NCBI GenBank assembly: GCA_022823825.1
Contig: JAJEHG010000033.1
Location: 1 to 64,000 of the forward strand
DNA length: 64,000 bases
Reading direction: 5' to 3'
Origin: Nitrosopumilaceae archaeon
GTDB taxonomy: Archaea; Thermoproteota; Nitrososphaeria; Nitrososphaerales; Nitrosopumilaceae
Part shown: piece by piece, positions 1,213 to 10,620 of the stretch
Layout: every line of letters starts with the position of its first letter
Position numbering within the stretch: position 1 is the stretch's first letter
Notes under the pieces: generated by a model
Databases searched by the model: none
Told to the model about the DNA's origin: nothing
The model's input: only the letters and a program-made list of their open reading frames with translations
Position numbers and translations under genes: made by a program

Positions 1213-2193
1213 ATGAGCGAGCCATTTGTAACTCATGCCGGAATACTCTCCTTCGCAGAGGAGCAAGTTAATCTTTCATCACATGATAAGCGCCGATACC
1301 GAGAACAGGTAAATTCCCTACGTGAAAAACTGGCGCAGCACATTGCAAGCAACCCAGGATTCGGACTAGTCAAAATGCTACATGCGGGAAGTGTTGCCAA
1401 AGGAACTGCCCTGCGCAACATTAATGATCTTGATGCCGCCGTATACGTGAAGAAGGATCAAACTCCTACTGATGAAAGAGAGATAGTGCCATGGGTAGGA
1501 GAGCGCCTCCGCGAAGTATATCCCCAAAAGGATGCGAGTGACTTTGATACTAGCTCTCCCCACTCTGTGAAAATTCATTTCAGAGGAAGCGGGCTAGATG
1601 TTGACATTGTCCCGGTCCTCTACGAGGGAGACGAACACGACCGTGGATATTTGATAGACAAGTATACCGGCGAGAGACTGCTCACCAGCATCCCGCTTCA
1701 TCTCCAATTTATCCGTAAACGGAAGGAGGCCAACCCGAGACATTTTGCCCAAGTCGTGCGCTTAGTCAAATGGTGGGCTAAACAACGAAAAGACGAAAAC
1801 TCTGCATTCAAATGCAAATCTTTCCTATTGGAACTACTTGTGGCTCACTTGGCTGACTCCGGTGTAAAGTTGGAGGACTATCCGCAAGCCCTTGAAAAAT
1901 TCTTCAGCTATATAGTAAAGACAGGTCTTGAGAAGCGCGTTGCATTCGGCGATTATTATCCCGCTAGCACTCTTCCAAACCCTACGGGAGACGCCATCGA
2001 AGTTTTCGATCCAGTCAATGCCGAAAATAATGTTACCAACAGGTACTCAGTTAGCGATCGTGATGCACTTGTCAAGGCCGCCGAAGAAGCAGCAGACGCC
2101 ATACGAGAGGCCTTCTACGCCACCACCACAAAGCGTGCAGTAGAGTCTTGGCAAGTTATTCTCGGACCATCTTTCAGGAGTAGACATCTATGA
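1213..2193 (+). CDS. CBASS CD-NTase (cGAS/DncV-like nucleotidyltransferase)
   Basis: The product would make a cyclic oligonucleotide second messenger after phage sensing and so start the CBASS response. The 326 residues show the polymerase-beta/OAS nucleotidyltransferase signature: GSVAKGT around residues 59-65, the first acidic pair DLD at 72-74, and the third Asp in DVDIVPV at about 129-131. The helical OAS1-C-like part follows (WWAKQRK, then FKCKSFLLELL). The stop overlaps the start of the HORMA gene by four bases (ATGA). The gene is AT-richer than the genomic background here, which suggests transfer. The exact clade (CdnC, CdnD or other) and the nucleotide product cannot be read from sequence by eye. 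Confidence 0.9.
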   Translation: MSEPFVTHAGILSFAEEQVNLSSHDKRRYREQVNSLREKLAQHIASNPGFGLVKMLHAGSVAKGTALRNINDLDAAVYVKKDQTPTDEREIVPWVGERLREVYPQKDASDFDTSSPHSVKIHFRGSGLDVDIVPVLYEGDEHDRGYLIDKYTGERLLTSIPLHLQFIRKRKEANPRHFAQVVRLVKWWAKQRKDENSAFKCKSFLLELLVAHLADSGVKLEDYPQALEKFFSYIVKTGLEKRVAFGDYYPASTLPNPTGDAIEVFDPVNAENNVTNRYSVSDRDALVKAAEEAADAIREAFYATTTKRAVESWQVILGPSFRSRHL

Positions 2194-2693
2194 CATTCTC
2201 CTTTACAACAAGCTCCACGTTTACTAGAACCGGTGCAAGATACATTGCTTCCAAGGTGGCAGCAGATCTCAGGGGCATGAGAGACTACTACAAACAGCCG
2301 GACGAATCCCGGATACGGGACTATAATGAGGAACTGACCGAACTCTTGGCGGGGGGTTATCTTGCAACTGTAGAATATGGATTTGTGAAAAATGATCAAA
2401 GGATAGTTACCCTGTATTATGAGGTTCGGCCTGACGGTTCACTTTCGGACGAAAGATCTGGGAATGTTTATGCAAGAGTAGACATTTCTAATGCAAAGTG
2501 GTTCTCATTTCTAACCTACAGCGATAAATGGGAATCATTATCCCCTGCCGACAAACAGCAGATCAAGGCACGAATACACATCAAGCGCGCTCCGGGAGAA
2601 CGTCCACAGGACGGCAATGGTTACTGGGTGATGGATAAAAGTTACTCTTCTCAAGATATGGATATGCAACGGAAGACGTTCCGTCCCTACTAG
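2190..2693 (+). CDS. CBASS HORMA-domain protein (bacterial HORMA family 1)
   Basis: The 167-residue protein begins FSFTTSSTFTRTGARYIASK, the characteristic opening of the single-HORMA partners of type III CBASS. A helix follows (DYNEELTELLAGGYLATVEYGF) and then beta-rich segments to the end. In studied systems the HORMA protein binds a peptide, closes, and switches on the CD-NTase. A TRIP13-like ATPase opens it again. The gene overlaps the CD-NTase stop by four bases and is followed without a gap by the ATPase gene, so the three are probably translated in a coupled way. A closure peptide should exist in a partner; the CD-NTase C-terminal tail is one candidate (inference). Confidence 0.85.
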   Translation: MTFSFTTSSTFTRTGARYIASKVAADLRGMRDYYKQPDESRIRDYNEELTELLAGGYLATVEYGFVKNDQRIVTLYYEVRPDGSLSDERSGNVYARVDISNAKWFSFLTYSDKWESLSPADKQQIKARIHIKRAPGERPQDGNGYWVMDKSYSSQDMDMQRKTFRPY

Positions 2694-3641
2694 GTGCTCG
2701 GTATGGCTTCCGACGAACTGTTCGACGAGATTAGAGAAATGCCAAATGCTGACGCAGATAGAGAATTCAAAAAGCTTGTAGGGCTAGATCGTCTAAAGGA
2801 TATTCTATTAAAAGAAGCCAGTCTTATTCTTGTTCCGGAGCTACTGGAGCAGTGGAGCAGTAAAAAACACGGGATTGTTCTGCCGTGCGTGGAGCAGTTT
2901 CATAATCGTCCACCAGTGATGGTGTTTTCCGGAGATGTAGGTACTGGAAAGACTACACTTGCAGATAGTTTGGGCAGTCCCATAGCCCGAGAAGAAGACA
3001 TCAAAGTGACGCATATCCGCTTGAGCCTCACCACCCGTGGCGAAGGAGCCGTAGGGCAGATGACCAGTCTGATATCTAGAGCATTTGACGAAGTGGTGAA
3101 ACTGGCTAAGAGAGGGACTAAGTCAGACGGGAAGCCTACATCGGCAGTCGTTTTCGTGATCGATGAGGCCGACGCGCTTGTAGAGTCACGGGACACCGAA
3201 CAAATGCACCACGAAGATCGCGCGGGAGTCGACGCTATGATTAGTGGGATAGATCGTATCACACGAGAGCATTTACCAGTTTTAGTGATACTGTGCACCA
3301 ATCGTAGCAGAGCACTCGATCCGGCTGTTCTGCGCCGTGCGGCAATTCATCATGAGTTTATGCGCCCAGACGCAGAACAAAGAGAAGCTCTGTTTCGTAG
3401 GGCCTTTGACAGGGTTTTTGACGACGAGCAATACAGGGAATTGTCCCGTCGAACCGGTTCAAACGCGAGCGGTCGGAACTACGGCCATTCCTTTTCGGAC
3501 ATTACTCAACGTCTCATACCCAACATTCTTCTAGATGCTTTTCCAAACAGACCGGTCAGTTTTGATCTAGCCTTATCAATACTTGACCGGACTGAACCGA
3601 CTCGGCCGTTCGGCCCTACGGATGGCGAACAGAAATCATGA
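2694..3641 (+). CDS. CBASS TRIP13/Pch2-like AAA+ ATPase
   Basis: The protein has 315 residues with one AAA+ module: Walker A GDVGTGKT at 80-87, Walker B VFVIDEAD at about 153-160, and the ALDPAVLRRA region containing probable arginine fingers near 200-215. In type III CBASS this ATPase remodels closed HORMA and shuts the alarm off. The frame opens with GTG at 2694 immediately after the HORMA stop. An in-frame ATG at 2703 is the alternative start. The stop overlaps the effector start by four bases. Position between HORMA and effector is the usual one for this family. Confidence 0.88.
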   Translation: MLGMASDELFDEIREMPNADADREFKKLVGLDRLKDILLKEASLILVPELLEQWSSKKHGIVLPCVEQFHNRPPVMVFSGDVGTGKTTLADSLGSPIAREEDIKVTHIRLSLTTRGEGAVGQMTSLISRAFDEVVKLAKRGTKSDGKPTSAVVFVIDEADALVESRDTEQMHHEDRAGVDAMISGIDRITREHLPVLVILCTNRSRALDPAVLRRAAIHHEFMRPDAEQREALFRRAFDRVFDDEQYRELSRRTGSNASGRNYGHSFSDITQRLIPNILLDAFPNRPVSFDLALSILDRTEPTRPFGPTDGEQKS

Positions 3642-5089
3642 TCACCGGACTGAGCCCAAGCGGCGCTCGAATCAGAGGCGATGACTATCAGCATTTATTC
3701 ACGTGGTGGCAAGCGCTCAGAGCGGTTATTGGAGCGAGTGACATAATCAAAATAGGGATAGAAGATCCCAGTGCCAAAAACGCTGACGACGTCACCGTGT
3801 ACATGAAAAACGGAGTGCGGGAATACTATCAGGCAAAGTCTTCCGTCGACGCACGCGACCCTGTTGGAATTATGTGGCTTATGAAACCCTCGAGATCAGG
3901 AGGATCGAGTATAATCCAAAGATTCTATAATCTGTGGGAAGGCGAACAAGACGGGCACAAACCCAAGATAATCTTGGTAACAAACCGTCTCCCTCTAGCA
4001 GGGGATATACTGAGCATGAGAGACGGCCGGGACTGCACCATCGTACGCCACTTACGAAGTGCACAGCCCAGATCAAAGACAGGTTCTATTCGTCGTGAGC
4101 TTGCCAAACACCTCGGGGTCACTGAAAGTAAGGCAGTGCAGTTCTTCCATGATTTTCAGCTCTGGTTTGGAATAACCGATAATTTGCTAACAGATTCTGT
4201 GCGGGATCGTATGCACATGGCTGGCCTTCGTTATGACGAGGAGGCAATAGCTCGAGGTGTAGCGATTGTGCATGACTGGGTAACAGGAGGAAAAAGAGAG
4301 ATCATAACAGCAGAGTTGCACCAAGTGGTTGAACCATTAAAGCAGCCCGACGATCCACCAAAGGCCTCAATCCTTGTCCAAGCAATTGACCGTGACACTA
4401 TCCCGGAAGCTGCTACAGTTGTCCTTGACTGGTTATGCTTGTTTCCAGGCAACGAACCAAGAGTCAGGCGCCAAGCGTCAGACCCGACGCTGTGGAATAA
4501 CCGGTTTAGGCCAGAACTACGACAGGCAGCGCGGGAACTGCGATCGCAAGGACACACTCACATTCTAGTTAAGGGGTATATGCGCTTGTCTACGTGGTTT
4601 ACCGCTGGCGTGGAGCTGGGTAAGATGGCGGGATTTGAGGTTTCATCATTTCAGGGCCTGGCTGCATGGTCTTCGGTTGGAAACGTGCCTAGCATTGGCA
4701 TCAAGCATACTACTACAACTCTAGGATTCGGCAAAGATCTTGCAGTGGGTATCGCTTTGGCAATGGATCCCTCTGCAGACGTGTTAACATATCTTCGTGA
4801 CCAGCGAATTGATGTGGGGGAGTACGTCTGCATAAGCCCTACGAGTGGCGCCAACAACCAAACCATTGGCAACGCTGCCGAGGCTAGAGGCTGGGCTTAT
4901 AGCGTACGAGACTCGGTTCGTCGCCTCGTTCTGAAATATGAACCGGGCCAAATACATCTCTTCCTAGCAGGCCCACACGGAGCGATACTTTTGTTGGGTC
5001 ACTTGTGGGATCGCATGCCACACACACAATTATACGAGGATCTCAATTCACCTAAAGGATACGCTCCTTCGTATCTAATTCCTAGATAA
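3638..5089 (+). CDS. CBASS effector, Cap4-like DUF4297 nuclease with SAVED domain
   Basis: The 483-residue protein looks like Cap4: an N-terminal PD-(D/E)xK-type DUF4297 nuclease and a C-terminal SAVED nucleotide sensor. The first part has IRGDDYQHL near 12-20, then D51 and Q65-A-K67 as the probable catalytic D...(E/Q)xK set. The last 200 residues carry SAVED hallmarks: ISPTSGANNQT, then the LFLAGPHGAILLLGHLWDR region and a late YED. In known systems ligand binding to SAVED drives assembly and indiscriminate DNA cutting, killing the infected cell. The gene overlaps the ATPase gene by four bases and closes the operon. Identification is by motifs; ligand and cut preference are unknown. Confidence 0.85.
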   Translation: MITGLSPSGARIRGDDYQHLFTWWQALRAVIGASDIIKIGIEDPSAKNADDVTVYMKNGVREYYQAKSSVDARDPVGIMWLMKPSRSGGSSIIQRFYNLWEGEQDGHKPKIILVTNRLPLAGDILSMRDGRDCTIVRHLRSAQPRSKTGSIRRELAKHLGVTESKAVQFFHDFQLWFGITDNLLTDSVRDRMHMAGLRYDEEAIARGVAIVHDWVTGGKREIITAELHQVVEPLKQPDDPPKASILVQAIDRDTIPEAATVVLDWLCLFPGNEPRVRRQASDPTLWNNRFRPELRQAARELRSQGHTHILVKGYMRLSTWFTAGVELGKMAGFEVSSFQGLAAWSSVGNVPSIGIKHTTTTLGFGKDLAVGIALAMDPSADVLTYLRDQRIDVGEYVCISPTSGANNQTIGNAAEARGWAYSVRDSVRRLVLKYEPGQIHLFLAGPHGAILLLGHLWDRMPHTQLYEDLNSPKGYAPSYLIPR

Positions 5090-5515: not shown

Positions 5516-5935
5516 CTATTTCCGTGAGCGGCGCCGTTCCTCGATCTTTCTTCTAATCTTCCGCAGGCACTTGTCGGGATCGGAGTTTATGTTGTGCTCC
5601 CAGAACCGCAGCACGGACCATCCCTCGCGTCGCAACTTTCTAGTGACGTAGCGATCACGCTTCATGTTTTTTAGAATCTTCTCCCTCCAGAACGTTTGCC
5701 TAGGAACTTTCCCATGTCGGTAGAGGTATCCATGCCAAAAGTCCCCGTCGCAGAACACGGCTATTCTCATCTGGCGGTGCGCAAAGTCCGGATTCCCCAG
5801 CATGCTCGGATACATCTCAAACCGCATGTCCGTATCGGCCAAGATTTCTCTCATCTTCAGGTCTATTCCAGTCCACTTGCCCCTGATCCTTGACATGATC
5901 CACGAACGCTTCTCCGGCGTAAACACGTCCGCCAA
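5516..5935 (-). CDS. vsr: Vsr-like very-short-patch repair endonuclease
   Basis: From a TTG at 5935 the protein reads MADVFTPEKRSWIMSRIRGK, the standard Vsr opening, and runs 139 residues. This decides the start: the open frame continues 41 codons further upstream without resemblance. The core includes NPDFAH with the probable catalytic Asp at about 50, and the FWHG motif near 67-70. Classical Vsr has Cys zinc ligands around FWH, but here the motif is DGDFWHGY, so the zinc site looks lost or different. Vsr nicks T:G mismatches made by deamination of 5-methylcytosine. No cytosine methylase gene is seen nearby. It sits among mobile and defence genes, so a restriction-linked origin is plausible. 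Confidence 0.8.
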   Translation of the reverse strand: MADVFTPEKRSWIMSRIRGKWTGIDLKMREILADTDMRFEMYPSMLGNPDFAHRQMRIAVFCDGDFWHGYLYRHGKVPRQTFWREKILKNMKRDRYVTRKLRREGWSVLRFWEHNINSDPDKCLRKIRRKIEERRRSRK

Positions 5936-6082
5936 TACAGTCACTGCTGCTACACGCCATAATAAAGAGGTGAAGGGCCAACATCCGGCGCTAGCATGGC
6001 GATCCGGCAGTTCCATCCAAGACAGGAGTGCGGCGCGGGCAACCGGATCTCGCCACATATGGTACTGTGAAGCTCCATAACA

Positions 6083-6565
6083 TCAGTCCAGCAGGCATTC
6101 TGCACTGTCAAGAAATTCAAACGCAGGTTCAAAGGGTACGCCCTTGTGACTTGCGTTTCCATACAAAAGACAACTGACATCATAACAGAACGGCATCATG
6201 CCACCGCACTTTAGAAGGGTTAGATCCATAACATTGCCATGGTTGTCGTATTGATACACTCTAAGTACGGGGGTGCCATTTGTTGTGAAACCAAACTCAT
6301 CAGTAGACTCCGGGTACATTGCCTTGAACTTTTTGTAGATTGTATGCTTTTTGTATTCACCGTACCATTCGTCACCCTCCGGCTCGGAGAATATTGAGTT
6401 TCTAATCGTAAAATAGGCCGCCTTTATACGATCGTCCACGCCCCCGCCGGTAGTCTGGTTGGGTACTGACTCAAAGTATGCAGCTACAGATATGATTGCG
6501 GCACACGCGCATACAAGTATGATTCTGTTTCTGGTAAAAAAAGAGAGGGCAGTTATGAGGTCCAT
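6083..6565 (-). CDS. Membrane-anchored protein of unknown function, 160 aa
   Basis: I place the start at the ATG at 6565, which lies inside the last codons of the upstream gene (ATGGACCTCATAA, 13-base overlap). From there the protein begins MDLITALSFFTRNR and continues with a hydrophobic stretch of about 20 residues, a probable N-terminal anchor. The rest is polar with several Cys residues (LLKCGG, FCYDVSCLL) that could form disulfides outside the cell. The open frame extends 28 codons upstream, but that part overlaps the neighbour heavily. The overlap suggests joint expression with 6553-7845. No family is recognised. Confidence 0.6.
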   Translation of the reverse strand: MDLITALSFFTRNRIILVCACAAIISVAAYFESVPNQTTGGGVDDRIKAAYFTIRNSIFSEPEGDEWYGEYKKHTIYKKFKAMYPESTDEFGFTTNGTPVLRVYQYDNHGNVMDLTLLKCGGMMPFCYDVSCLLYGNASHKGVPFEPAFEFLDSAECLLD

Positions 6566-7845
6566 GCATTTGTGGTTCCAGTTAGATACCAGACGTACGA
6601 TGGATCGTCTCTGTCGCTTGCCAGCACATTCTTTGTTAACTTCGCACACCCTAGTCCGCTTGTAGTATGTGTCTGCTCGTTTCCTCCAATTTCAAGAGTG
6701 GCAATTGCATAATTGTAGGAACCTATGTGGGAACACGAAGATATGTGTATCTTCATGTAGTTGCTCGTACCATGGCCTGCTCCTTCTCTGGCACTTGTGT
6801 CGGGAGGGCTCAGTGTCATACGATGCTCTCCGGCACTCCAAGGGATTTCTTCTTTAACCTTGCATGTCCCATATGTGCACGTGTGGGGCTCACCATACAT
6901 TATGGTATAGTGAGGAGTCTCACTCCACGCATACGCGCTGGGCAGGATTAGTGACAGCCAGTTTGATGCCACTTCCGGAGGGGGCCCAGGATCCTTTTCA
7001 TACACCTTGGTATCGAGAATCTTGCGCAACGCGTCCGCGTCACATCCCTCGCTGTACCCGCATGCGGCAATGTTGACAACGACGTTCCAGTATTTGGTGT
7101 CGTTCTCAAACAGTGCGTCTGGAACGTTTCCGTGCTGTGCAAGCGTATTGAACGCGTCTGCCACATCGGGTGCGAACGTGACAAACTCTGATTCGGAGAT
7201 TATCTCGCCCAGTCTATCGTCAATAGCATCCACGGAGTCTGGGGCGGGGTATTTTTCTGCCAGCCAGTCGTGAAATATCTTTATGGGCCCTGTGTGGTTG
7301 TACTGGCCCTGCAATTTTTGCTTTGTCACCACCAGTGACGTGATCTCGTGTCCAAAGCCGGTCTTTTCAATTATCGTATCAAAGTTGTGAATCTTTGTGT
7401 GAATCTGAACCATTGCCTCGTTCCATCCGTTCTCCTGTATGTCCATAGTTGTGTATGCGCGCAAAGCAAACATCATCTGCCGAAACTCAGCGGAACTTGC
7501 GAACTGGGCTTCCCACTCTTCACCGTATCGTTCAATCAATTCATCATCGTAAATGTCGTCTTCAACAAGGGTGTTCTGCCTCAGATCCGCCAGATCCTGT
7601 TGGTACGCTGCCAGTGCAGCTGTCTGCCGCGCAGTATCGTTGCCGCCCTCTTGATCGGCAACCGATGCGTCATCTTCATCTGCCGGGGTGTCCGCGATGC
7701 CGCCTGTCTGCGCAACAGCATCACCTTCTGATGTCGATGCCGTTGTATCTGCAAATGACATGCTACTTATGCCCGACAGGGCCACGGCCATGGCCGCCAG
7801 CATCATAAACAGCATAAGTTTTATTCGTTGTTTTTCTTTTTGCAT
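6553..7845 (-). CDS. Secreted or surface protein of unknown function, 430 aa
   Basis: The protein starts MQKEKQRIKLMLFMMLAAMA, a basic start plus hydrophobic core typical of a signal peptide, with likely processing near the SFADTT segment at about residue 30. A Thr/Asp/Glu-rich linker follows, then a helical body of about 200 residues, and a Cys- and His-containing C-terminal part of about 130 residues that looks beta-rich. A TATA-like tract (attaaatag) at 7873-7880 lies about 30 bases before the ATG. The base composition is AT-richer than the host background. Together with the overlapping downstream gene it seems to form a surface-exposed pair. I do not recognise the family. Confidence 0.7.
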   Translation of the reverse strand: MQKEKQRIKLMLFMMLAAMAVALSGISSMSFADTTASTSEGDAVAQTGGIADTPADEDDASVADQEGGNDTARQTAALAAYQQDLADLRQNTLVEDDIYDDELIERYGEEWEAQFASSAEFRQMMFALRAYTTMDIQENGWNEAMVQIHTKIHNFDTIIEKTGFGHEITSLVVTKQKLQGQYNHTGPIKIFHDWLAEKYPAPDSVDAIDDRLGEIISESEFVTFAPDVADAFNTLAQHGNVPDALFENDTKYWNVVVNIAACGYSEGCDADALRKILDTKVYEKDPGPPPEVASNWLSLILPSAYAWSETPHYTIMYGEPHTCTYGTCKVKEEIPWSAGEHRMTLSPPDTSAREGAGHGTSNYMKIHISSCSHIGSYNYAIATLEIGGNEQTHTTSGLGCAKLTKNVLASDRDDPSYVWYLTGTTNAWTS

Positions 7846-7898
7846 ATTATAGTGTCGATACGCGCCATTGCTATTTAATTGTTGTTCGTGTCGTAGCG

Positions 7899-7990
7899 GT
7901 AACTGGTTAGGTCCGCTCTGAATTTACGCCTAGCAATTACAATGTTTGATCTGTTTTGTGCCTGAAAAATCAACCGACCTAACCAGTTAC
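7899..7990. mobile_element. 92-bp MITE with 15-bp terminal inverted repeats
   Basis: GTAACTGGTTAGGTC at 7899-7913 is the exact reverse complement of GACCTAACCAGTTAC at 7976-7990. The element is flanked by an exact 8-bp direct repeat, TCGTAGCG, at 7891-7898 and 7991-7998, the expected target-site duplication. No coding capacity fits in 92 bp, so it is a miniature non-autonomous element. The right-hand copy of the duplication contains the first five bases of the inverted repeat of the adjacent IS, so this element inserted into the IS end after the IS had arrived. Confidence 0.85.
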
Positions 7991-8309
7991 TCGTAGCGTG
8001 TTGCATAATTCCCGAAGCTGTCCCACTCGAAGGTGCGGCTCTGCGGCATGGCACAGGCCGCTCGACTGCCCCGCAAACCGGACGGGAAGTGCCACCGCGC
8101 CTCCGGGCCGTGGTGCCGGCGTATGCGATCCGCCGGCAGCAGGCCGCAGGTGGGCAGCGTTTCCAAGCCTGCGGAGGGTACGGGCAGGGCACGGCGCGTT
8201 ACGCGCCTTGACGCCTTGCGGGCACCATCGTGTGCTCTCCGGATCCGTATTTAACGGGCACGCGGCGCCCGGCCGTCCGTTGCGGCGTTGTTAAATATGC
8301 ATGACGCGA

Positions 8310-8338
8310 GATCCCATCGACCAGTAAATGATGGGATC
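8310..8338. repeat. Hairpin inside the IS, upstream of the transposase
   Basis: GATCCCATC at 8310-8318 pairs perfectly with GATGGGATC at 8330-8338 around an 11-base loop. It lies between the left IS end and the transposase start and could block read-through from outside or bind the transposase. The role is a guess; only the inverted repeat is seen. Confidence 0.5.
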
Positions 8339-8425
8339 GGCGCGTCTGCAACGGCATATCACACGGCGTGAATTTAACTACAGCTGTACGCCGCACCCTC
8401 CGAGGTCGCGGGAAGCGGATGCAGG

Positions 8426-9361
8426 GTGAGCGCGGGCAGGGCCAAGAATAAGAAGAAAAAGAAGGGCCCCTACAGGTACACGCACAGCCTGATTGCGGCA
8501 ATATCCCAGATCCGCGACAAGATGTCGCTTGACTTTAGGAGCTGCGAGGGCATGCTACCGAAGGGAAGGGGCCCCGCATACACCACCATATTCAGGAGGG
8601 TCGGCGCGCAGGACGCGTCCATAAGGGAGAGCCTGTCTGACGTCTCCTGCGGGGACGTCGCAATCAGCCTGGTGCCAGACGGCACCGGGATCACGCCCGC
8701 GACGCGCAGCGAGTACGTGCGCGTGGTGCACAGGCTGAGGCGCGGGTTCCTCAGGCTCACCATAATGATCAACAAGGAGACGCTTGAGATAGTCGCGTTC
8801 CGGCTCACGGACGACTCGGTCGGCGAGTCGTCCGTGTTCGAGGCGCTCCTGCACGACGCCCTTGAAAACATGGGGGTGGACCCCGACCGGAGGCGCGCCG
8901 AGGTGAAGGCGCAGCGGGGCAGGCCGGACAAGACGTACCCCGGCATCACGCTCATGGCAGACGGCGGGTACGACGCCAGGGAGATCTTTTCGGCCTGCAA
9001 AAGGCTCGGCATTGCGACCAGCATACGCGTCCGCAGGGACGCGAACGCGCGCGCAGACGGCGTGGACAGGGCCAGGAGCGAGGCGGTGCTCGACCAGCTC
9101 GGGGGCGGGCCCGGCGCGACGCCCGCCAAACTTGCGGCCATGGGCGGGGCGGAGCGCGAGGCGAACCGCAGAAGATGGAAGGAGCGCGTCCGGTACGGCA
9201 CGCGGTGGCTCGTCGAGATAGTGATATCGGCATTCAAGAGGACGTACGGCGACGCGGCCGCGGCCAGAAAGATGGGGAACATACGGCAGGAGATCAGGCT
9301 GAAGATCTGCACGTACAACCGCATGCTGCGGATCGGCAGGGAGGCGGCCATGAGGGCCTGA
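8426..9361 (+). CDS. IS5-like DDE transposase
   Basis: The protein has 311 residues from a GTG at 8426, with a very basic start (KNKKKKKG). The three catalytic acids are visible: D85 in SLVPDGTG, D179 in TLMADGGYD, and E264 in RWLVEIVISAFKRTYG, the usual D-D-E order and spacing of the IS4/IS5 transposase superfamily. It cuts and rejoins the 18-bp ends that flank it. The frame is uninterrupted and GC-rich, like the host and unlike the neighbouring AT-rich genes. Another copy of its C-terminal region survives as a fragment at 61309-61512, so the family has been active here more than once. Confidence 0.88.
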   Translation: MSAGRAKNKKKKKGPYRYTHSLIAAISQIRDKMSLDFRSCEGMLPKGRGPAYTTIFRRVGAQDASIRESLSDVSCGDVAISLVPDGTGITPATRSEYVRVVHRLRRGFLRLTIMINKETLEIVAFRLTDDSVGESSVFEALLHDALENMGVDPDRRRAEVKAQRGRPDKTYPGITLMADGGYDAREIFSACKRLGIATSIRVRRDANARADGVDRARSEAVLDQLGGGPGATPAKLAAMGGAEREANRRRWKERVRYGTRWLVEIVISAFKRTYGDAAAARKMGNIRQEIRLKICTYNRMLRIGREAAMRA

Positions 9362-9564
9362 CAGGCGCATTCGGGACGATCCCCTGCCGTGCACCGTCCG
9401 GCGCGCGCCGGCCCTTTGGGCCCGGGGGGCGCCGCGACCGGGGGCGCGGCGTCGCGGGCCCGTCCGAAACGGCGGACGCCGCCTCAGGGCGCGGCGCCGC
9501 GGGGGCCCGTCGCCCACCCGGCACTCCATTCTGTCCGCAAGGTCGACGAATTATGCAACACGCT

Positions 9565-10038
9565 ATGTCTGCATACAAGCATTTCAAGGACAAAAACAAC
9601 GAAAGAAGAAGAGCGTCGTACAACCTGTACCTTGAACTGGGCGATACGCTGCGCAGTTTGGATTACGACAACTTTCCTGAAGAGTTTGGTTATGTGGACG
9701 TGCAAGACCGTGAGGAACGCAAGACCTTGTATTTCATGAGCAAGATACTCAATCATGACTTTTACGACAGCATGATCTCCTCTGGACAAATCAATTTTTT
9801 GGCTCCAGATCTGCAACAGCCCATGCAAAACATCTTCAAACGCATAAAGATGCACAACGAGTTTCTGGCTGCCGTTAGGCGCATGCATGATCAGCAGACT
9901 GGTGACGCGGTTCCAGAGCAAGCCTACCAATATTATGCATGGATGGACGAAAACGAGGTATACTTGAGCAGGAAGATTCCTGACATGATGAAAAAACTAC
10001 AAAAACACTTCAAGTTCGATCGTCGGGAGGAGGCCTAG
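9565..10038 (+). CDS. Unknown helical protein, 157 aa, start abutting the IS
   Basis: From the ATG at 9565 the protein begins MSAYKHFKDKNNERRRASYN and is charged and probably all-helical. It contains NFPEEFGYVDV near residue 35, many Met and Gln residues in the middle, and a KKLQKHFKFDRREEA end. The A of the start codon is also the last base of the IS right end. A second in-frame ATG at 9553 lies within the IS repeat. The insertion has separated the gene from its original upstream DNA (around 7870-7893), so expression may now depend on the IS. No family is recognised. Confidence 0.65.
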   Translation: MSAYKHFKDKNNERRRASYNLYLELGDTLRSLDYDNFPEEFGYVDVQDREERKTLYFMSKILNHDFYDSMISSGQINFLAPDLQQPMQNIFKRIKMHNEFLAAVRRMHDQQTGDAVPEQAYQYYAWMDENEVYLSRKIPDMMKKLQKHFKFDRREEA

Positions 10039-10162
10039 GCTTGCCCGTTTTTACCCCCTTGCCCAAGGGCACGGATACTGCGTACGGCCCCGGCAGCTCC
10101 TTGCCGCCATAAAACAGGTCGCTCATGTCCTTCTCGATCTCTTTTACCCGTGTATCTGACAT
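10010..10162 (-). CDS. Possible small leaderless gene, 50 aa
   Basis: A minus-strand ATG at 10162 opens 50 codons beginning MSDTRVKEIEKDMSDLFYGG and ending basic and Pro-rich. A TTTAAAT box at about 10184-10191 lies 22-29 bases upstream, the standard leaderless spacing in this window. The frame overlaps the end of the convergent gene by 29 bases. The opening looks like a coiled charged helix. The family is unknown and the support is moderate at best. Confidence 0.4.
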   Translation of the reverse strand: MSDTRVKEIEKDMSDLFYGGKELPGPYAVSVPLGKGVKTGKPRPPPDDRT

Positions 10163-10182
10163 GCCATAGGTTGTGCTTTGAT

Positions 10183-10620
10183 CTATTTAAAACAGATGAT
10201 CCGGGGTTCTCTCGCAAACGCGGTTGATGGGTGTCCATATGGCCAGATTTTTGAAATTTGAGCCCAAAACACGCCCATTTGAGAGCGATTACACTCCTTG
10301 GCATGTCCTGACGCGCGTCGAATCCGTGTCAACCGCGTTTGCAAGAGTAGTATGACGTCGCGCCTTTTGAAGTATTTCACGACATCCCCGTACATGTACC
10401 GCGGCGCCCTGTCCAGCACCAGCACCGTCTTTCCCACCGACCGGGGCGCGTGCCGGATAGCTCCTTGGGTTTTGACGATATCTCGCGCGCCGAGACTGCG
10501 CGCCCCACCCCGTACCATTTCCCGGACTCTGGACATTTCCGTGGAATTTTTACCGGCCTCCCGGCGCACGGCCTGTCCGAGAGCGCGTTTTTTATTCCGC
10601 TCATCGACCGCGTACACCAC
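10183..10620 (-). pseudogene. IS630-type transposase remnant
   Basis: The minus-strand frame contains VYAVDE (first catalytic Asp of the IS630/Tc1-mariner type) and, about 70 residues later, KTVLVLDRAPRYMYGDVVKYF, which fits the second Asp segment (usually VLDNAPxH). The final catalytic region with PPYSPxLNPIE is absent. After ILLLQ the frame runs into the inverted-repeat element at 10209-10347. The distance between the two Asp motifs is also shorter than normal. The gene is therefore dead. It belongs to a family different from the intact IS at 7994-9565. Confidence 0.6.
10209..10347. repeat. 139-bp MITE-like element with 19-bp imperfect inverted ends
   Basis: CTCTCGCAAACGCGGTTGA at 10209-10227 and TCAACCGCGTTTGCAAGAG at 10329-10347 are reverse complements except for one base. 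They enclose 101 bp without a gene, inside the decayed IS630 transposase frame. No clear target duplication is visible. It may be a non-autonomous element or a shortened derivative of an IS. Confidence 0.6.

Follow-up and report, generated by a model that had tools for sequence, protein, structure and literature searches.

A 92-bp MITE with IS66-type ends in an ammonia-oxidizing archaeon

Which transposase could have moved a small element that carries no gene of its own? The question is posed by a 92-bp element at positions 7899–7990 of the window, the 64-kb stretch of Nitrosopumilaceae DNA analysed here, which the original prediction described as a MITE of unknown source family that must depend on a transposase encoded elsewhere. 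Its assembly comprises 1,696,603 bases in 68 contigs (89.6% complete) and includes one gene for archaeal AmoA (E 8.5e-117; 0 of 14 control genomes positive), which identifies the host as an ammonia-oxidizing archaeon.

Anatomy and setting of the element

Reading of the window sequence confirmed that the terminal repeats and the target duplication are exact, as originally described. The left terminal inverted repeat, GTAACTGGTTAGGTC (7899–7913, forward strand), is matched by its exact reverse complement GACCTAACCAGTTAC on the right (7976–7990, reverse strand), and the 8-bp sequence TCGTAGCG flanks the element identically on both sides (7891–7898 and 7991–7998). The inverted match stops at 15 bp, position 16 being C on one side and G on the other. 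Between the repeats lies a 62-bp non-coding core (7914–7975). One of the six frames through the 92 bp is free of stops over 30 codons, with nothing that points to a protein; the proposed lack of coding capacity and need for an external transposase are supported. The G+C content of the element is 41%, compared with 60% for the window. It is short and non-coding, with terminal inverted repeats and a target-site duplication, as MITEs are; the usual presence of multiple copies in the genome is not seen, as the assembly holds one. MITEs tend to be multicopy according to the portions of a recent review that bear on this (PMC10969869), and we treat multiplicity as a usual rather than a defining trait.

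The contig that carries the element is 79 kb long and begins about 7.9 kb before it. On its left is an open reading frame on the reverse strand (6553–7845) with a signal-peptide-like N-terminus and no Pfam family, whose start codon is separated from the MITE by 53 bp. A TATA-like sequence, AATTAAATAG, was picked out by eye between the two (around 7871–7880); as it sits on the gene side of the MITE, the predicted core promoter of this gene was probably left untouched. Further left, four adjacent forward-strand genes (1213–5089) of this ammonia-oxidizing archaeon have matches to the components of a CBASS-like defence operon of type III: an oligonucleotide cyclase (PDLC00808, E 6.7e-122), a HORMA protein (E 2.4e-53), a TRIP13-type ATPase (E 3.4e-105) and a SAVED endonuclease (E 8.5e-131). 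They are adjoined by a Vsr-type mismatch endonuclease gene on the reverse strand (5516–6058).

Insertion order and distribution

On the right, the MITE abuts an IS5-like element (7996–9563, forward strand; terminal inverted repeat GCGTGTTGCATAATTC) whose transposase gene (8426–9361, forward strand) matches PF01609 (E 1.4e-14) and, below cut-off, NF033579 (E 3.1e-35). TA is found at 7994–7995 and 9564–9565, and the span given takes it as the duplication, although it could equally be end sequence; the relevant entries in PMC3281130 record a 2-bp duplication for IS5/IS427 elements. The ends of this element, TAGCGTGTTGCATAATTC, are shared by a 77% identical relative on contig C28 of the same genome, and TAGCG is present on all four ends seen. 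The 8-bp duplication of the MITE is composed of TCGTA, the older host flank, and GCG (7996–7998), with which the IS5-like element begins. If that element had arrived second, TAGCG would be predicted to its right; the bases there are TATGTCTG. The MITE is thus the younger of the two: it landed where host DNA meets the left end of the IS5-like element, which it kept intact. It does not appear to derive from its neighbour, as the terminal repeats of the two agree at 4 of 15 positions, no better than shuffles, which upholds the earlier statement that they differ. The accompanying claim that the MITE moved recently goes beyond the data. With 0 mismatches in 23 compared pairs (15 + 8), divergence is bounded below about 12% (95%); these are too few pairs to prove absolute recency, and while recent movement is plausible, it is the order relative to the IS5-like element that the sequence establishes.

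Could the structure be something other than an inserted element? The 92 bp fold strongly (z −5.34; 0 of 200 shuffles as stable), as a functional RNA or a transcription terminator hairpin would, but the stability derives from the 15-bp inverted ends, and no Rfam family matched positions 6000–10500 at E values up to 1. A hairpin would also leave unexplained both the exact direct repeat at the borders of the inverted repeat and its inclusion of GCG from the IS5-like element, and we regard this reading as very improbable. A chance inverted repeat or an assembly artefact is scarcely credible, even in an assembly as fragmented and incomplete as this one. Scanning for perfect 12-bp inverted ends 50–400 bp apart, flanked by a perfect 8-bp duplication, returned the MITE as the only such place in the window, whereas 20 first-order Markov simulations of the window returned none, with the same outcome when the ends were relaxed to 8 bp; the MITE is also interior to its contig. 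Similarly, the end 15-mer with up to 3 mismatches has two matches in the window, the two MITE ends (shuffle mean 0.65).

The full element is present once in the 1.70-Mb assembly. A scan of the genome for the end sequence with up to 3 mismatches gave 11 places, compared with 26 for a reversed control, so weak sites carry no meaning unless transposase pieces adjoin them; the exact matches were the two ends of the element itself. BLAST of the 92 bp against 61 genomes recovered the full element in its own genome only. A further 48 genomes gave hits (best E 0.0023), but these are short, and those inspected fall in the core and do not bring the pair of ends, so they were discarded. Of 200 genomes of the family, one has the paired-end pattern, and of 400 genomes of the order, one has the exact 15-mer; each time it is the genome studied here, and the 15-mer is absent from the 399 others. 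Viral contigs yielded 0 instances and a phage collection nothing relevant. No unoccupied orthologous site was readable in relatives: the flanking gene (6553–7845) has matches in 5 of 95 genomes of the genus, its own among them, and the others are distant (best 39% identity). The original prediction was to fall if there were neither a further copy nor a transposon with similar ends in related genomes. Further copies were found neither in this genome nor in its relatives; transposons with similar ends are present in both.

IS66 elements and MITEs with related ends

IS66 ends typically begin GTAA. In the same genome, three sites match the MITE end at 13 of 15 positions, two on contig C42 (127, reverse strand, and 13727, forward strand) and one on contig C34 (33487, forward strand). 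Each is at most about 520 bp from a contig edge, where repeats that break an assembly would be expected, and each adjoins a piece of IS66 transposase (shuffled-end P ≤ 5e-5). Both C42 sites open into a common sequence (99% identity over 141 bp) and into a frame reading MSNPSEVKLLRDEL. The N-terminal piece that it encodes resembles IS66 transposases of archaea (E 5e-16 and 4e-13); in Pfam it matches DUF6444 only, below cut-off. The C34 edge encodes an IS66-type C-terminus (E 1e-11 to the transposase at locus L060) with its stop codon inside the inverted end, and its 53 residues have no Pfam match. The copy with the closest ends is thus incomplete in the assembly: a Pfam search of the genome hit four places, two above cut-off, and none is an IS66 catalytic core carrying C42/C34-type ends. 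Open transposase frames are present on contigs C25 and C45, with ends that are less similar to the MITE (C25) or different (C45). On C25 the IS66 element is complete, at 1,671 bp; its ends, GTATGTACTCAGGTC, match the MITE at 10 of 15 positions, and AGGTTGGA flanks it on both sides.

In loci retrieved with the C42 protein, which matched 12 of 200 genomes, or with a Pfam search, matching ends with exact 8-bp duplications were found at C25 and in the genomes G070, G061, G076 (two) and G083 (three). They include archaeal examples 1.4–1.9 kb long, with a single PF03050 transposase and GT...AGG ends; the end in G070, GTATATGGTCAGGTC, agrees with the MITE at 12 of 15 positions. PF03050 was detected in 7 of 9 scanned proteins (L016, L058, L060, L061, L062, L070 and the Bacteroidetes L126), L061 being the G083 copy included in the scan. 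At L064 and L078 the 8-bp duplications are exact, yet the longest frame has no Pfam match, and neither locus was counted as IS66; L056 (ends with 4 mismatches, exact 8-bp flanks) was likewise left out, and L123 was set aside for 1 mismatch in its repeat. The three G083 copies (L061, L069, L052) are each 1.9 kb with their own exact 8-bp duplication, and their ends, GTATGAGGTCAGCA (in one copy GTACGAGG), run directly into a run of C. In the congeneric genome G030 (L120, L121), IS66 is found at contig edges, with a frame that apparently passes from the zinc-finger region directly to the C-terminus, as an internal deletion would leave it. A GCACAA motif occurs near the ends of the MITE and of some IS66 elements, in too few ends for a claim.

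The 92-bp MITE resembles this short, single-gene type of IS66, which we take to be the ISBst12-like subgroup, in its GT...AGG-type terminal inverted repeats and 8-bp duplications; it differs in having no gene and a core without homology. An 8-bp target duplication is also listed for the IS66 members ISPpa5a and ISPpa7 in the corresponding part of PMC3281130.

Comparable small elements occur elsewhere. The congeneric genome G026 has a MITE of 131 bp; its ends, GTAATCGGTTAAGTC, have 14 of 15 bases in common with the IS66 ends GTAATCGGTTAAGTT beside which it is found. Its ends agree with those of the 92-bp MITE at 12 of 15 positions, both finish GTC, and both MITEs are associated with resident IS66; it differs in its length, copy number and unrelated core. 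Within the genus it was found in 1 of 95 genomes with at least 9 matches, a lower bound since 9 of 174 first-look candidates were scored, and we count at least 12 copies (L140–L148, L059, L073, including further copies in L141, L059 and L073). Across 10 copies, the 8-bp flanks are exact in 3, carry one mismatch in 2 and show no duplication in 5. By eye, a diverged copy at L073 is nested between two parts of an IS66 gene.

Scanning one genome per species across 84,980 species for GTAAYYGGTTAG...CTAACCRRTTAC yielded 41 stretches, of which 40 lie in the Bacteroidetes MAG CAIZLM01 and 1 in a Lewinellaceae MAG (G243). CAIZLM01 (L079, L081–L119) holds 44 distinct copies of a 78–80-bp MITE with ends GTAACTGGTTAG, the first 12 bases of which are identical to those of the 92-bp MITE. 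Direct 8-bp repeats with at most one mismatch flank 27 of the 43 copies with enough flank (14 exact, 13 with one mismatch; one copy was dropped), compared with 0 of 43 at offset positions. This family thus shares its first 12 end bases and 8-bp duplications with the 92-bp MITE, and differs in its high copy number, core and bacterial host. A helper IS66 was not found for it in that MAG, whose one complete IS66 element (L126) has different ends, GTAAGCCTCCCAC (4 of 15 to the 92-bp MITE). The Lewinellaceae MAG also contains a 1,050-bp element (L132, 350–1399) that has perfect 14-bp ends, GTAACTGGTTAGCC, on both sides and no clear duplication. Its product is a shortened IS66 transposase (PF03050, E 4.8e-21; NF033517, E 2.9e-41, below cut-off), the frame of which is missing the beginning of the catalytic domain. 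Taken together, the two MAGs indicate that the first 12 end bases of the 92-bp MITE also terminate an IS66 element and other MITEs.

Source of the element and its meaning

The ends, the duplication length and the companion elements point to IS66 as the family that the original prediction had left unnamed, and the element is very probably a non-autonomous IS66-family MITE whose ends would be recognised in trans by a short, single-gene-type archaeal IS66 transposase. Such a transposase would make an 8-bp staggered cut, giving rise to the TCGTAGCG duplication as the MITE inserted at the junction between host DNA and the older IS5-like element. We infer that the best candidate for its helper is the IS66 element bounded by GTAACCGGTTAGGTT / GTTACTGGTTAGGTT, pieces of which lie at the contig edges of C42 and C34. 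Several observations weigh against an IS66 origin: with a single copy, its mobility is read from its anatomy; 2 of 15 bases differ from the nearest helper ends; the core shows no likeness to IS66 subterminal DNA; the catalytic core of the closest-ended helper is missing from the assembly; and half of the G026 copies examined lack an 8-bp duplication.

Two other histories were weighed against mobilisation by IS66. IS256, ISL3, IS6 and IS1595 also make 8-bp duplications, and a transposase of one of these or another such family could be responsible, since the tie to IS66 consists of end sequence and duplication length, with a core that has no homology. We think this quite unlikely, as the GTA...GGTTAGGT end adjoins IS66 transposases in four settings (this genome, G030, G026 and the Lewinellaceae MAG), related GT...AGG ends are carried by complete archaeal IS66 elements, and such ends were met on no other family among the elements encountered here. 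The element might instead be the decayed relic of one IS66 copy that lost its middle after insertion and never moved in its small form. Its single copy and the internally deleted IS66 in G030 are compatible with this, and the ends and duplication would look no different if the middle had been lost after insertion. Yet the 62-bp core has no part that is similar to the subterminal regions of the IS66 elements compared. When it was aligned in both orientations with seven sequences (G026 MITEs, the Bacteroidetes MITE and IS66 ends), at least 30 of 300 shuffles scored as high in every case, and no subterminal or core alignment to a parent IS66 was better than shuffles. Both ends moreover depart from the resident IS66 ends at 2 of 15 positions while remaining identical to each other, and the multicopy MITEs of 131 and 78–80 bp show that small elements do move. 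We consider a deletion relic unlikely. In view of the core, descent from an IS66 parent is at most putative; core homology is not needed for an IS66-family MITE moved in trans.

A parallel is offered by MITEPsy1 of Pseudomonas syringae, which, in the sections of PMC3189936 that describe it, is 100 nt long with 18-nt ends, occurs also inside or beside other transposons and is thought to be moved in trans; it has IS5-type ends and a 4-nt duplication, and its transposition was observed, whereas the 92-bp MITE is known from sequence. In its available text, a 2024 review lists archaeal MITEs from Sulfolobus, Halobacterium, Haloquadratum, a Desulfurococcus-type archaeon and others, with neither “IS66” nor “Thaumarch” appearing (PMC10969869), and “IS66” is absent from the main text, as available, of a survey using archaeal genomes (PMC3852290). 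Within the openly available portions of the literature on IS66/ISBst12 and MITEs and on thaumarchaeal or ammonia-oxidizer MITEs, a scope exclusive of subscription papers and ISfinder, no IS66-derived MITE was found.

IS66-type MITEs are documented here in archaea, with one copy in this genome and at least 12 in a congener, where the literature searched showed none. It is tempting, if rather doubtful, to see in them a recurring, undescribed class in ammonia-oxidizing archaea, in which independent families (92 bp and the 131 bp of G026) converged on GTC ends against the GTT of resident IS66, as if selection had favoured MITE ends that make better use of the transposase than those of the parent. 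For the genome itself, an orphan mobile element can now be assigned to a likely transposase family, and its insertion after the IS5-like element adds a small piece of mobile-element history to what is otherwise ordinary genome plasticity.
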